Shown here piece by piece: positions 6,525 to 28,804 of a stretch of DNA of 33,687 nt. The notes below the pieces were generated by a model. The model ran no database searches, was not told the DNA's origin, and worked only from the letters and a program-made list of their open reading frames with translations. Where the stretch lies: the IMG/VR virus record IMGVR_UViG_3300033146_000933, positions 1 to 33,687 of that record; one strand, written 5' to 3'. A program made the translations under genes and the position numbers. The stretch comes from a virus. The stretch's first letter is position 1. Every line of letters begins with the position of its first letter.

Positions 6525-7142
6525 ATGGACAAGCAATTCGTGGTACCAGAACATAAAGATGATCGCCATATTCCTTTTTCAAAAGAGCATTTTCGAACTG
6601 TTCATAGAAATATTAAAGATGAGCAACAAGTCCTAGGAAAAGGATTCGTGCTTGATTCCCAGCTTTCCGATGATCTTATTTCTAATATTGGAAGTAAAGA
6701 GTTATCCGAAGATTTTAAAAGTAGCAGTATGATTACTATTTCGAAAGAATTTTCATTCGCTGCGGCACATGCTCTTCCTCATCATAAAGGAAAATGCCGA
6801 TTTTTACATGGACACGAATGGAGATTGAAAGTTTCTATTACAGGGCCGGTTGACGCAAAAGAGGGAATGGTAATGGATTTTTCCGATCTGAAAAAGATTG
6901 TAAATTCCTGCGTCATAGATAAACTGGACCATTCCTATGTTAACGGACTTCTATTTAATCCTACAGCAGAAAATATGGTAGTGTATATTTGGAACTGCCT
7001 ACAATACGAAGGGAATCTAAAAGGAATATCGAAGATTGTTCTTTGGGAAACCCCGACCTCCCATGCAATTTTGGTTGCTTCTTCCATGAGTAAAATGGTT
7101 ACCGGTATGTGGGGGGATAGGACTTATAATGAGAATAGCTGA
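6525..7142 (+). CDS. queD: QueD, 6-carboxytetrahydropterin synthase, with N-terminal extension
   Basis: Converts dihydroneopterin triphosphate to 6-carboxy-5,6,7,8-tetrahydropterin, the second step to 7-deazaguanines. Zinc ligands are His82 in FAAAH and the HGH at 95-97; the catalytic Cys91 is in GKCRFLHGH. DFSDLK, LDHSYVN, PTAENM and ETPTSHA follow in the usual family order. At 205 residues it is longer than the usual ~120 because of a ~68-residue N-terminal extension with no recognised domain. The ATG at 6525 has a TAGGAG site, while the internal ATG at 6729 has none, so the extension is probably translated. It overlaps queE by 14 bases. Confidence 0.9.
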   Translation: MDKQFVVPEHKDDRHIPFSKEHFRTVHRNIKDEQQVLGKGFVLDSQLSDDLISNIGSKELSEDFKSSSMITISKEFSFAAAHALPHHKGKCRFLHGHEWRLKVSITGPVDAKEGMVMDFSDLKKIVNSCVIDKLDHSYVNGLLFNPTAENMVVYIWNCLQYEGNLKGISKIVLWETPTSHAILVASSMSKMVTGMWGDRTYNENS

Positions 7143-7860: not shown

Positions 7861-8025
7861 ATGGAAGAATCAGTAACAATCCACAAACTAACATGTGAGC
7901 GATGCGGCCATTCTTGGGTGCCAAGAGTTCAAACAGTGAAAACTTGCCCTAATTGCCGTTCCCCGTACTGGGACACACCGAAGCAGAAAAAGAAAGTAAC
8001 TCAATCTCAAGGAGAAGAAAAATGA
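7861..8025 (+). CDS. 54-residue zinc ribbon protein
   Basis: A short protein with CERCG at residues 12-16 and CPNCRSPYW at 29-37, a standard small zinc ribbon that ends in a lysine-rich tail. AGAGGAG precedes the ATG. Its stop overlaps the next start (ATGA), so the two are coupled. Single zinc ribbons of this form in phages often have unknown roles, possibly nucleic acid binding. Confidence 0.75.
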   Translation: MEESVTIHKLTCERCGHSWVPRVQTVKTCPNCRSPYWDTPKQKKKVTQSQGEEK

Positions 8026-8591
8026 AACATGCCGAATTGAAAGCACTCGTGGAAAAACTCAACGAACTGAAACTGGAAGGTATCGAATCCCTGCGTACGG
8101 TAGGAGTGAAAGGAACTGTCCTGAAGGAAAATTTCCTTCTGGCTATTGAGGAAATTGATGAAAAAGGTATGACTGATCAACTTCCTGATCCTTTCGTGGA
8201 TGCGTACAATGAGCTATCTAAAGAGAGCGAAGGCGATGGCGATGCTGCCGAAGCTCCAGTCAAGGACAAGCCTGCGAAGGACAAGCCTGCGAAGGACAAG
8301 CCTGCGAAGAAAAAAGTCGCCGGTGTTGGTAAAAATAAAGGTGCCGAACCTTCTCGCTACGGTCATGTGAAAACAGCAGTTTCTGGTAAACTCGATGATC
8401 TTTTGTTTGCTGGCAACACCGTTACTTTCATGATGAAAGAACTCGGAATTGCCCGTACTCGGGTTGTTAATCATGTGAAACACCTGAAAAATGATAAAGG
8501 TCTGAAGGTTACGGAAACTAAGCCGGAAGGCAAAGATGTCAAATTGAATGATACGCATTACCAGGTCGAAGAAGAATTTTGGACCAAATAG
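8022..8591 (+). CDS. probable DNA-binding protein with KDKPA repeats
   Basis: The start at 8022 is chosen because AAGGAGAAG precedes it and it overlaps the previous stop as ATGA. The 189-residue protein has a helical N-terminal domain (about 1-65), an acidic patch, a linker with three KDKPA repeats and a basic end (about 80-108), and a C-terminal domain (about 112-189). In the last, MMKELGIARTRVVNHVKHL fits a helix-turn-helix or winged helix, followed by a KGLKVTET wing. It is more GC-rich than its neighbours. It could be an abundant nucleoid-type or transcription factor; no family is recognised. Confidence 0.7.
   Translation: MKHAELKALVEKLNELKLEGIESLRTVGVKGTVLKENFLLAIEEIDEKGMTDQLPDPFVDAYNELSKESEGDGDAAEAPVKDKPAKDKPAKDKPAKKKVAGVGKNKGAEPSRYGHVKTAVSGKLDDLLFAGNTVTFMMKELGIARTRVVNHVKHLKNDKGLKVTETKPEGKDVKLNDTHYQVEEEFWTK
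8262..8306 (+). repeat. three tandem 15-bp repeats
   Basis: AAGGACAAGCCTGCG occurs three times without a gap (8262-8276, 8277-8291, 8292-8306), encoding KDKPA. Exact identity at DNA level suggests recent slippage expansion of the linker. Confidence 0.9.
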
Positions 8592-8628: not shown

Positions 8629-8708
8629 AAAAGTTCGTGGTTCGGGTAGCAGTCTAAAAGCCTACATAACTGTCCGGTAAAACTTAAAGCTGTATCCCAC
8701 GAACTTTT
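8629..8708 (+). ncRNA. structured RNA element A in the folE leader
   Basis: AAAAGTTCGTGG (8629-8640) pairs perfectly with CCACGAACTTTT (8697-8708), closing a 56-base domain. Inside, CGG/CCG (8643-8645 and 8674-8676) stacks with CAGT/ACTG (8650-8653 and 8669-8672). Alternative pairings are TACA/TGTA (8663-8666 and 8691-8694) or GTAG/CTAC (8646-8649 and 8662-8665), so two folds compete. It lies 22 bases before the folE ATG, and no gene occupies 8592-8730. A smaller TCAC/GTGA hairpin lies upstream at 8611-8624. It shares a sequence core with element C. A cis-regulatory RNA or an independent small RNA are both possible; no known class is recognised. Confidence 0.6.
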
Positions 8709-8730
8709 CTTTCTATCAAGGATATAAAAA

Positions 8731-9312
8731 ATGAGCAGTGAAGCAATCGCACGAGCCGCCGTAGCGGAATTATTGGATTTTGCCGGAGACAATCCCGACA
8801 GAGAAGGTTTGCTTGAAACTCCAGATCGTGTTGTTCGTTCTTTTAAAGAGCTTTACAGTGGTTATAATATTGACCCGAAAAGCGTACTTAAAGCATTCGA
8901 CCCCGAAGACGTTGCTCTTGGGGATAATGTTAATTACGATGAAATTGTCTTGGTAAAAGATATTGAATTATTCTCCACATGTGAACACCATATGCAGCCG
9001 TTCTTCGGAAAAGCACATATCGCTTACATGCCAACTAAGAAAGTTCTCGGAGTGTCGAAGCTTGTCCGATTAATGGAAGTCTTCGCTCGCCGGTTACAAA
9101 TACAGGAACGAATCGGAAAACAAATCACAAATGCCCTTATGGAATATGGTCTATGTTCCGGTGCTGCGTGTATCATTGAAGCACAGCATTTCTGCATGAC
9201 CTCGCGAGGTGTTCAAAAGCAAAACTCTAAAATGGTAACAAGTTCCATGCAGGGGTGCTTTTTAGAAAACCAAACTACTCGACAAGAACTCATGATGCTG
9301 ATTAAGGGGTAA
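8731..9312 (+). CDS. folE: FolE, GTP cyclohydrolase I
   Basis: Opens GTP to dihydroneopterin triphosphate, the first step of the 7-deazaguanine (and folate) pathway. Zinc-binding motifs are STCEHH near residue 88 and HFCM near 155; GKAHIAYMP, GVSKLVRL and the C-terminal SRGVQKQNSKMVTSSM match type I enzymes. The length of 193 residues is normal. CAAGGA precedes the ATG, which follows structured element A. The stop overlaps the radical SAM gene start. In this setting it supplies phage-encoded precursor for the DNA modification rather than folate. Confidence 0.93.
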   Translation: MSSEAIARAAVAELLDFAGDNPDREGLLETPDRVVRSFKELYSGYNIDPKSVLKAFDPEDVALGDNVNYDEIVLVKDIELFSTCEHHMQPFFGKAHIAYMPTKKVLGVSKLVRLMEVFARRLQIQERIGKQITNALMEYGLCSGAACIIEAQHFCMTSRGVQKQNSKMVTSSMQGCFLENQTTRQELMMLIKG

Positions 9313-10304
9313 TGATGAAGGTTGTTAAAGCAGAAATTCTTTTTAGTCGCAAATGTAACTTGGATTGCAGTTATTGTGGCATGGTTACAGGAAAAGAGAA
9401 TAACCGAAGTGTTGGTTCTTGGTTTAACGGCATGAGGAACTTAAAAGAACTAGGATGCGAATTTGCAGCATTCTATGGTGCCGAGCCACTTCTTGAGTTT
9501 GATAAATTGATAGACGTTGTGGCTTTCGCAGAACAAATCGGCATAAACACAACGATTATCACTTCTGGAATAGTTCCTAGTTTCCGAGAGAAACTAAAAC
9601 TGCTTTACGAAGCTGGAGCTAAAAGTATTTCTATGTCCTACGATATGCTTCCACTTGACTACTCCAGTGAATTGAAGATGGTAGGTACAATCGAAGATTT
9701 GCTTTATTTCCAGAGTCTTGGAGATATTAGGGATGTTGCTGCTATTTCTACCCTTACCAGAACTAATTTTCATTTACTACCGGAAACAATTATAAAAAAT
9801 TCGCAATTGGGCATTTGGACGTTCTTTGACTTCATCCACCCCGATAGGGGATTGCCAGGGAGTAAGTGCAGAGGAGACGGCGGTGGTCTGTTGTTTAAAG
9901 AACAAGACTTTCCTTATTTACTAAAAACTTTGTATGAAGTTCAAGAGCTTAAAGAAAATGGAGCACTTGTACACGCTTCAACAGAATTTCTTGCATTAAT
10001 GGCACAAGAAAACTTTTCCTTACTGAAAAACTTTAATTGGAATTGTGCAAAACACGATGTTTTTCCTTCTTGGGTAACAATCGATTGTGATGGTTCGGTA
10101 CATTATTGTGATGATTTTCAAGAGCAACGGAAAAAACCAAAATTTGATATGACTACAATTCATGAAAATTGGGAATATTTTTCTGAGTATGGTAAAGAAT
10201 TAATTTCCACCCGATGTAGAGGGTGTGCTTGGTCTACCCATATTGATGCTCATTACATCAAGATGGGGGTTAATTCTTTAAATTCTTACATCCACGGTCT
10301 GTAA
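9312..10304 (+). CDS. radical SAM protein with SPASM-like cysteine-rich C-terminus
   Basis: The N-terminal motif KCNLDCSYC gives C15, C19 and C22 for the SAM-binding [4Fe-4S] cluster. FYGAEPLLEF follows where the GGEP motif is expected. The last ~100 residues carry WNC, IDCDGSVHYC and TRCRGCAW, a cysteine set like SPASM or twitch domains that hold auxiliary clusters. Such enzymes commonly modify peptides or other complex substrates. It lies between folE and queC and overlaps the folE stop, so it belongs to the 7-deazaguanine operon, but none of the standard steps to preQ0 needs it. Start is ATG 9312 or 9315. The substrate is unknown; tailoring of the 7-deazaguanine base or a separate modification are possibilities. 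Confidence 0.85.
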   Translation: MMKVVKAEILFSRKCNLDCSYCGMVTGKENNRSVGSWFNGMRNLKELGCEFAAFYGAEPLLEFDKLIDVVAFAEQIGINTTIITSGIVPSFREKLKLLYEAGAKSISMSYDMLPLDYSSELKMVGTIEDLLYFQSLGDIRDVAAISTLTRTNFHLLPETIIKNSQLGIWTFFDFIHPDRGLPGSKCRGDGGGLLFKEQDFPYLLKTLYEVQELKENGALVHASTEFLALMAQENFSLLKNFNWNCAKHDVFPSWVTIDCDGSVHYCDDFQEQRKKPKFDMTTIHENWEYFSEYGKELISTRCRGCAWSTHIDAHYIKMGVNSLNSYIHGL

Positions 10305-10347
10305 TCATTTGATTTAAAAGGTAAATAAGAAAGAGAGAGATTATTAT

Positions 10348-10428
10348 CAGCGGTGAGTCGGTCTATAGAAGTGTTGATCACCTTCTGAGAGGGTCGCTAC
10401 CGAGGGGGTTCGAATCCCCCGCCGCTGC
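10348..10428 (+). tRNA. tRNA-like gene, isotype unresolved
   Basis: A 7-bp acceptor stem CAGCGGT/GCCGCTG (10348-10354 and 10421-10427, one G:T) and a perfect T arm GGGGG-TTCGAAT-CCCCC (10404-10420) are exactly as in a real tRNA, with the normal direct junction between them. The D arm is weak. The anticodon arm is ambiguous: ACCT/GGGT with a TCTGAGA loop gives anticodon TGA (Ser) but a C at position 33, while the loop TTCTGAG would give CTG (Gln) with poor stem pairing. A short GGT/ACC hairpin (10392-10401) could be a variable arm. CCA is not encoded. It is either a divergent functional tRNA or a tRNA-derived element. Confidence 0.6.
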
Positions 10429-10440
10429 AAAGGAGAATTT

Positions 10441-10599
10441 ATGAAAAAAATAGTTAGTATTTTATTTCCAAAAATAAGAGTTAATCCTTTAGAATTGCAA
10501 AGGAAAATCGAGTCTGAAGGAAATCTTGTAAATTTTACTTTGTCTTCAGGAGAGCATGAATTAGCAATCCGTGGAATATACACAGCAAGACTAAAATAA
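10441..10599 (+). CDS. small hypothetical protein, 52 residues
   Basis: A short frame with AAAGGAG just before the ATG, starting 12 bases after the tRNA-like element. The protein has a basic start and a beta pattern (LVNFTLSSGEHELAIRGIY) but no known motif. It lies between two structured RNA segments. Whether it acts as a protein or as a leader peptide cannot be told. Confidence 0.5.
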   Translation: MKKIVSILFPKIRVNPLELQRKIESEGNLVNFTLSSGEHELAIRGIYTARLK

Positions 10600-10600
10600 A

Positions 10601-10718
10601 TAAGACGCTGCTACCGTCTAAAAATTCATAGTAACGAACTCGGAAGGTGAGCTGCTATGTTAAGTACAGGCTGGTACTGGTATAACCCCCCTCCGTACTA
10701 AGTCAGCCCAGCGTTTTA
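10601..10718 (+). ncRNA. structured RNA element C
   Basis: TAAGACGCTG (10601-10610) pairs with CAGCGTTTTA (10709-10718), a 10-bp closing helix with one G:T. Inside is a helix CATAG/CTATG (10627-10631 and 10655-10659) with an inner CTC/GAG, and a long hairpin GGCTG+GTAC/GTAC+CAGCC (10669-10677 and 10695-10708) that stacks directly on the closing helix, giving a three-way junction. The loop holds CCCCCCTCC, which could pair with the AAGGAG site at 10718-10723. The core GTCTAAAA...TAAC...CGG...AGCTG is shared with element A. No gene lies in 10600-10728. No known RNA class is recognised. Confidence 0.65.
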
Positions 10719-10728
10719 AGGAGCAAAA

Positions 10729-10872
10729 ATGAAAATAGAAACGACCGAATGGGATAAGGAAGAAAATGAATTTTATATTCTCCCATTATTGTCTGCTGCG
10801 AAATCGAATAAAATAATTACAATAAATATTGGATGGCTTCTTTGGGCATTCAGTTTTCAATTCCGATATTAA
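10729..10872 (+). CDS. small hypothetical protein, 47 residues
   Basis: A short frame with AAGGAG 5 bases before its ATG; that site touches the closing helix of element C. The N-terminal half is charged (TEWDKEENEF) and the C-terminal half is hydrophobic and aromatic (ITINIGWLLWAFSFQF), so it may associate with membrane. No family recognised. It could also be a regulated leader peptide upstream of queC. Confidence 0.45.
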   Translation: MKIETTEWDKEENEFYILPLLSAAKSNKIITINIGWLLWAFSFQFRY

Positions 10873-10874
10873 TT

Positions 10875-10967
10875 TCCTTCGGCCTCAATGGTGAGGTGCT
10901 TCTATAGTGAACTGATTTTCGGATTCAGTTATGCGACACTATGGAAGCAACGAAGGATTCAGGAGGC
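10875..10967 (+). promoter_or_regulatory. structured queC leader (element D), candidate riboswitch-like switch
   Basis: TCCTTCG/CGAAGGA (10875-10881 and 10951-10957) closes a three-way junction. One arm is CCTC/GAGG (10883-10886 and 10893-10896). The other is GCTTCTATAGTG with CACTATGGAAGC (10898-10909 and 10937-10948, 12 bp with one G:T), extended by AACTGA/TCAGTT (10910-10915 and 10925-10930). The queC ribosome binding site AGGAGG (10961-10966) can instead pair: GCCTC at 10882-10886 matches GAGGC at 10963-10967. The first arm and this pairing exclude each other, which would switch translation on or off. The ligand, if any, is unknown. Confidence 0.65.
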
Positions 10968-10970
10968 TCT

Positions 10971-11948
10971 ATGTATAATAAAATTCTATGTCTTTCTGGT
11001 GGTTTAGATTCTGTAATTGCTTATTACTTTTTAGGCAAACCTCAAACCATCTTCTTTGATACGAAAACCTATTCAGATAAAGAAAAAGCGGTCGTGCTAA
11101 AAATAGCACCGCATACTATAATTGACAACTCTTTGGATTTTTCTGAAATAGACACAAACGAAAATGCTTTCATACCAGGAAGAAATTTACTATTTGCTAT
11201 GAGAGCAGCACAATACTCTGATGAAGTGGTAATTGCCGGAGTGAAAGATGATGTAGTTGGTGATAAGAATGAAAATGCTTTTTATTCCATATCCAGAACA
11301 ATCCGATTGATTTTAAATAATCCAGATTTTAAATTAACTTCTCCATTCTGGGAAGTGACAAAATCCGATATAGTTAAGTCGTTACTTGAAAATGAAACCG
11401 ATGCAGTGAACATTATCAATTCCACTTTCTCTTGTTATTCCCCTAATATGTTTGGTAAAGAATGTCATGCGTGTCCAGCATGTTTTAGAAAATGGAATGC
11501 CCTATGGGATAATAATATTAAAACACCATTTACCAATAAAGAGTTAATGCAAGAGTATTATACAAAAGCACTTGATGATGGGTACATTGAGGAACGGAAT
11601 AAATCAATTATAAAATGTGTGGAAGAATTTCGAATGAAATCCCCTCCAGAAGGTGCTAAAAGAAAACACACCTTTTGTTTTGATATTGATGGGGTACTCA
11701 CAAACGAAACTGAAGGTCATGATTATCTCAGTAGAACCCCAAATGAAAATACTATTTGGAAAATACGGGAACTTTACAATAGCGGAGCAACAATAATCTT
11801 ACAAAGCGCAAGGTGGCATTGTGATCTAAATGTTACGCAATCTTGGCTGGATAAATACAGCGTTCCTTACCATGAATTACATTTAGGAAAGCCAAAAGCA
11901 GATTTTTATATTGATGATCGCATGATTAAAATAGAGGACATAGGATGA
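10971..11948 (+). CDS. queC: QueC (preQ0 synthase) fused to a HAD phosphatase domain
   Basis: The start at 10971 is chosen because AGGAGG lies at 10961-10966; the upstream ATG at 10941 falls inside a helix of the leader and has no binding site. Residues 1-~230 are QueC, which converts CDG to 7-cyano-7-deazaguanine (preQ0) with ATP and ammonia: PP-loop SGGLDS at 9-14, NENAF and GRNLL, and the zinc cysteines in FSCYS and ECHACPAC. Residues ~232-325 are a HAD domain: FDIDGVLTN with Asp238 and Asp240, then LQSAR, GKPKAD and IDDR. HAD domains with this YHEL...GKP.AD.YIDD ending are common phosphatases in sugar-related clusters. The fusion is unusual; the HAD substrate is unknown. Overlaps dpdA by 4 bases. 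Confidence 0.9.
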   Translation: MYNKILCLSGGLDSVIAYYFLGKPQTIFFDTKTYSDKEKAVVLKIAPHTIIDNSLDFSEIDTNENAFIPGRNLLFAMRAAQYSDEVVIAGVKDDVVGDKNENAFYSISRTIRLILNNPDFKLTSPFWEVTKSDIVKSLLENETDAVNIINSTFSCYSPNMFGKECHACPACFRKWNALWDNNIKTPFTNKELMQEYYTKALDDGYIEERNKSIIKCVEEFRMKSPPEGAKRKHTFCFDIDGVLTNETEGHDYLSRTPNENTIWKIRELYNSGATIILQSARWHCDLNVTQSWLDKYSVPYHELHLGKPKADFYIDDRMIKIEDIG

Positions 11949-20059: not shown

Positions 20060-20091
20060 AAAGCTGCGGAGGATTCGTTCTCCGCAGCTTT
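20060..20091 (+). terminator. intrinsic terminator after the SSB gene
   Basis: AAAGCTGCGGAG and CTCCGCAGCTTT form a perfect 12-bp stem with an 8-base loop, starting four bases after the stop codon and ending in a short T tract. It is symmetrical and could work in both directions. It would limit RecA expression from the upstream promoter. Confidence 0.85.
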
Positions 20092-28692: not shown

Positions 28693-28756
28693 GCTCGAAA
28701 TTTGCTCTGTGCTTGACGTTCTTTTAAAAAGCATAGCACGTATCGTTTTAAAAAAG

Positions 28757-28799
28757 AAAATGACGCTCCGCTTAAATTAGATCAGCGGAGCGTCATTTT
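28757..28799. terminator. bidirectional terminator between convergent gene blocks
   Basis: AAAATGACGCTCCGCT and AGCGGAGCGTCATTTT form a perfect 16-bp stem (28757-28772 and 28784-28799) with an 11-base loop. It has A and T tracts at its two ends and so works on both strands. It lies exactly between the last + gene and the last - gene. A weaker GTGCT/AGCAC pairing lies upstream (about 28720-28740). Confidence 0.93.
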
Positions 28800-28804
28800 C
28801 TGAA

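Follow-up and report, generated by a model that had tools for sequence, protein, structure and literature searches.

The interval between a radical-SAM protein gene and queC in a viral 7-deazaguanine gene cluster probably harbours a real, previously undescribed structured RNA, element C, which is present in at least two related phages and is unrelated to element A, a hairpin in the leader of folE with which the original prediction had united it. Both elements lie on the + strand of the window, i.e. the entire 33,687-base viral contig analysed here (IMG/VR record IMGVR_UViG_3300033146_000933), and both are found where they had been placed, A at 8629-8708 and C at 10601-10718.

The locus is indeed the 7-deazaguanine cluster that had been proposed, as QueD (window position 6525), QueE (7129), FolE, QueC and a TGT/DpdA-like protein (11945) are all present, and this gene set corresponds to that for preQ0 in phages whose DNA contains 7-deazaguanine (PMC6884629). 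folE, encoding GTP cyclohydrolase I (8731-9312, + strand; PF01227, E=6e-67), is located downstream of A, and an ORF whose function is not known (8022-8591) lies directly before the folE leader. The radical-SAM protein gene (9315-10304, + strand) lies upstream of C. Directly 3' of C the window contains a small ORF of 47 aa (10729-10872, + strand), whose Shine-Dalgarno (SD) sequence AAGGAG adjoins the closing helix P1 of C, and the next conserved gene downstream of C is queC (10971-11948, + strand; PF06508, E=4e-16; TIGR01689), its reading frame being open from 10941 and position 10971 being the start that has a good SD sequence. QueC carries a C-terminal HAD-like phosphatase domain (TIGR01689-like), a fusion that is unusual for the preQ0 pathway and is kept in the nearest relative of the window.

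This nearest relative is a single 13.6-kb contig (IMGVR_UViG_3300039186_000478, hereafter L003) with a protein identity of 59-90% (76% for the radical-SAM protein over the part present in L003), and the gene set is also found in L033 and L011/L034, both of which are more distantly related. Two genes of L003, those for a DNA polymerase (L003:5029-8691) and a UvsX-like recombinase (L003:1-1974, minus strand), have in-frame insertions after residues 758 and 76, respectively, where the window genes are uninterrupted, and both insertions are probably inteins. Elsewhere in the window, perfect hairpins of 18 bp (28755-28801) and 12 bp (20060-20091) are likely to be bidirectional terminators.

Conservation and architecture of element C

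A covariance model built from the window copy of C alone and run over 207 kb recovered a homologue at L003:12813-12954(-), at a score of 44.6 bits (E=3.6e-10). This homologue, which was reached by two independent routes, i.e. via the protein neighbourhood and via a DNA pattern, occupies the same interval as in the window, from the radical-SAM gene to queC. In a local alignment the two copies score 37 as compared to 15.5 for shuffled sequences, and none of 2000 shuffles was as good. In the model alignment of the pair 98% of the pair cells are standard and nine pairs are changed on both sides, whereas sliding the partners by 1-3 columns as a control leaves only 31-43% paired, with 0-2 double changes. 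The best register set by hand gives 11 compensatory pairs (six of seven in P2, two of five in P3 and three of ten in P1), all of this covariation being one comparison between the only two C sequences in the collections searched.

Element C is predicted to be branched, with P1 closing the structure and P2 and a P3/P4 arm inside. P1 is formed by TAAGACGCTG (10601-10610) and its partner at 10709-10718, and its outermost three pairs are not all kept in L003. Both closing helices had been described as perfect, which holds for the 12 bp of A, but not strictly for the 10 bp of C, one of which is a G-U pair. The inner helix of C that had been given as CATAG/CTATG does form, with a probability of about 0.78 in the folding ensemble, and is longer than described: P2 comprises 7 bp between CATAGTA (10627-10633) and TGCTATG (10653-10659), and its counterpart in L003, CTGTTAG/CTAACAG, supports it by covariation. 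P3 pairs GGCTG (10669-10673) with CAGCC (10704-10708) and is replaced by GTCCG/CGGAC in L003. The letters that are invariant between the two copies, in contrast, are mainly single-stranded, namely the block CTACC (10611-10615), the P2 loop block CGGAAGGTG (10641-10649), the junction AAGTACAG (10662-10669), the last G of which opens P3, and the terminal loop ACCCCCCTCCG (10685-10695), so that C is marked by the block series CTACC...CGGAAGGTG...CCCCCCTCCG. As far as two sequences can tell, helices that vary around loops that do not are the pattern that functional RNAs show, and we regard C as a genuine conserved RNA, a structured candidate not described before that belongs to a narrow phage lineage.

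The folding energy of C is ordinary (z=-0.79 in the window and -0.95 for the L003 copy), and stability alone would thus not have singled it out. Two pseudoknots, UACC/GGUG and CGGA/UCCG, are possible and invariant, the underlying complementarity being no more frequent than in shuffled blocks. A leader peptide encoded by a frame of 14 codons within C (MLSTGWYWYNPPPY) was rejected; a coding explanation of C is unlikely, as the L003 copy lacks a start codon for this frame and the reading frame is not maintained from one copy to the other.

Element C appears to be lineage-specific, since the collections searched yielded no copy besides these two. Three DNA-pattern searches in 2.9 million viral contigs yielded, besides chance matches, L003 only, and pattern matches in L004, L023-L031 and L035 were dismissed as coding-sequence or sequence-level coincidences. 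The DNA-pattern search in 85,000 bacterial and archaeal genomes gave no copy, and the alignment of the radical-SAM protein revealed no prophage relative among bacterial and archaeal genomes. In 50,697 phage records, blastn with C, A and the L003 region as queries found chance matches only. Of 16 phages with related clusters, whose full records were searched with the two-sequence C model, L003 alone matched and the other 15 gave nothing. Between the radical-SAM gene and queC of the more distant relatives L033 and L011 there is no C-like element. Rfam 15, preQ1 and THF classes included, gave nothing at the gathering cut-off in the window and nothing relevant even at E<=10, in agreement with the earlier statement that no preQ1 riboswitch class fits, and no Rfam match was obtained in the L003 region at gathering or permissive thresholds.

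Element A and its resemblance to element C

A and C had been proposed to be paralogous copies of one RNA family next to 7-deazaguanine genes. In favour of this idea, GTCTAAAA is present in both elements (8652-8659 and 10616-10623) and is followed by AGCTG in the same order, and both closing helices are flanked by A and T. The resemblance of the proposed shared core (GTCTAAAA...TAAC...CGG...AGCTG) is nevertheless at chance level. A local alignment of the two interiors scores 19, the shuffle mean being 16.7 (sd 3.4), with 1318 of 5000 shuffles (26%) being as good, and of 16,778 further windows taken from this contig, 950 (5.7%) match A as well as C does, or better. Moreover, GTCTAAAA and AGCTG are both absent from the L003 copy of C, i.e. 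the letters shared with A are not those that are conserved. Nor does the helix TACA/TGTA in A hold, as its pair probability is 0.0 and the minimum-energy fold uses these bases otherwise. Searched for homologues, as had been suggested for the presumed family, the A model retrieved none and the C model only the L003 copy, and neither finds the other element: the C model gives A 3.1 bits, as compared to 5.3 bits on the wrong strand and 44.6 for the L003 homologue, and the A model gives C 1.1 bits. Since the similarity is at chance level, the covariance models fail in both directions and the helix in A is not predicted to form, the covariation that had been read from A and C compares two unrelated molecules, and we consider a common family of A and C highly improbable. 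Of the two structured RNAs originally described, C thus stands as conserved in L003, whereas A is a hairpin without a homologue and no relative of C.

Element A consists of a 12-bp helix (8629-8640/8697-8708) enclosing an interior of 56 nt and followed by a T-rich tail. An inverted repeat of 12 bp occurs in 0.04% of shuffles of the folE leader (P=0.0004), and A folds somewhat better than shuffled sequences (z=-2.55). No homologue of A was detected by blastn in the 50,697 phage records or by the covariance model, and upstream of folE in 17 other phages no A-like element was evident by eye or found by the model. In L033, however, the same junction, i.e. that between the homologue of ORF 8022-8591 and folE, contains a strong 12-bp hairpin with a sequence unrelated to that of A, and a hairpin at this site may thus generally serve termination or the folE leader without any kinship in sequence. 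Most simply, A can be read as a hairpin of the terminator or leader type located between the upstream ORF and folE, a reading to which we give about an even chance. The 12-bp helix, its flanking A-run and T-run and the tail CTTTTCTTTC fit an intrinsic terminator, but the interior is longer than a textbook terminator would allow, and A is not among the sites given by the terminator scan. The THF-II riboswitch (folE motif) is likewise located just upstream of folE, with the ribosome-binding site within its P1 (PMC6800512), whereas the closing helix of A contains no ribosome-binding site and A has no covariance-model match.

Two further structured sequences lie close to C. A branched element at 10875-10957, directly upstream of the SD sequence of queC, is closed by a 7-bp stem and contains a 6-bp hairpin as well as a long arm, which is made up of 12-13 bp and a further 6-bp hairpin; none of 200 shuffles reaches its stability (z=-4.80), and its GCCTC is complementary to GAGGC of the SD region. 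It is a better candidate than A for a leader element of queC, and no such element precedes queC in L003. Upstream of C, a tRNA-like sequence (10348-10427) combines an acceptor-like stem of 8 bp with a perfect T-arm (GGGGGTTCGAATCCCCC), whereas a clean D-arm and a clean anticodon arm are missing. ARAGORN does not report it in default mode, and the relaxed modes, which do, disagree on its identity (Ser(TGA) and Arg(TCT)).

Possible roles of element C

As its unpaired blocks are strictly conserved, we infer that C works via a specific fold, through which it may bind a ligand, a protein or a partner RNA. Our tentative guess is that C might regulate, from its intercistronic position, how strongly the downstream end of the preQ0 operon, i.e. 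the queC side, is expressed, riboswitch action included. In the window the conserved CCTCC loop of C (CCCCCCTCC) could, judging by complementarity, pair with GGAG of the SD sequence AAGGAG that follows P1, but no SD-like sequence directly follows C in L003. The next ORF differs as well: where the window has the 47-aa ORF, an ORF of 109 aa follows in L003 after ~270 nt in which no gene is evident. As the gene directly 3' of C is not conserved, regulation in cis is weakened. That C is kept while the next gene changes would be expected of a stand-alone phage RNA that acts in trans, is transcribed together with the operon and may be processed out of its transcript, a reading that we regard as nearly as likely as regulation in cis and also only as a possibility. 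The stretch without an evident gene behind the L003 copy and the tRNA-like sequence in the window would be in line with a stand-alone RNA, whereas the position of C, in the same interval in both phages, speaks against it, as does, albeit as a weak test, that no consensus promoter or terminator was recognised around C. In terms of placement, both copies are situated between the radical-SAM gene and queC and are followed by different ORFs, which are two cases only. The region behind the L003 copy (L002:815-1085, L003 minus strand) contains several short hairpins, has an ordinary folding energy and gives no Rfam match.

More specific activities are less probable. If C acted as a metabolite riboswitch, it could sense an intermediate of the 7-deazaguanine pathway such as preQ0 and control the queC side; this would suit its location inside the preQ0 gene cluster and its conserved unpaired blocks. 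The nearest parallel is the preQ1-III riboswitch (RF02680), which C resembles in its size of about 100 nt, its several helices and its 7-deazaguanine gene context, and in which the P4 loop has been proposed to pair with the SD sequence (PMC11625349), loosely like the CCTCC loop of C that faces the SD sequence in the window. No preQ1 class in Rfam matches C, however, the covariance model of preQ1-III included, and the L003 copy lacks the SD sequence that such pairing would address, so that we consider a riboswitch unlikely. A self-cleaving ribozyme or a processing signal might likewise be compact and branched with invariant unpaired blocks, but as no known ribozyme family in Rfam matches C, this strikes us as more doubtful still. 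If C were either a new ribozyme or a riboswitch that responds to a 7-deazaguanine intermediate, it would be the first of a new class of phage RNAs in a DNA-modification operon, for which we see a small chance. An element of the operon that acts in cis or a separate RNA that acts in trans are the readings we hold to be more plausible.

The T4 stable RNAs C and D are short, encoded in the tRNA region of T4, and their function is not known; element C can be likened to them by description and differs in being located in a base-modification operon. With the orphan RNAs that emerged from comparative genomics (e.g. PMC2864571, PMC8040213) C shares the intergenic position, the covarying helices and a function that is not known, whereas C stems from two phage contigs only.

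With element C, the orphan RNAs known from phages gain a member that is supported by covariation, and its two sequences form the basis for a real family model. Showing that A is no relative of C keeps a false consensus out of the seeds of future searches. To our knowledge, no RNA sensor is known in a phage DNA-modification pathway, and C would be the first if preQ0 or a related base is indeed what it senses.
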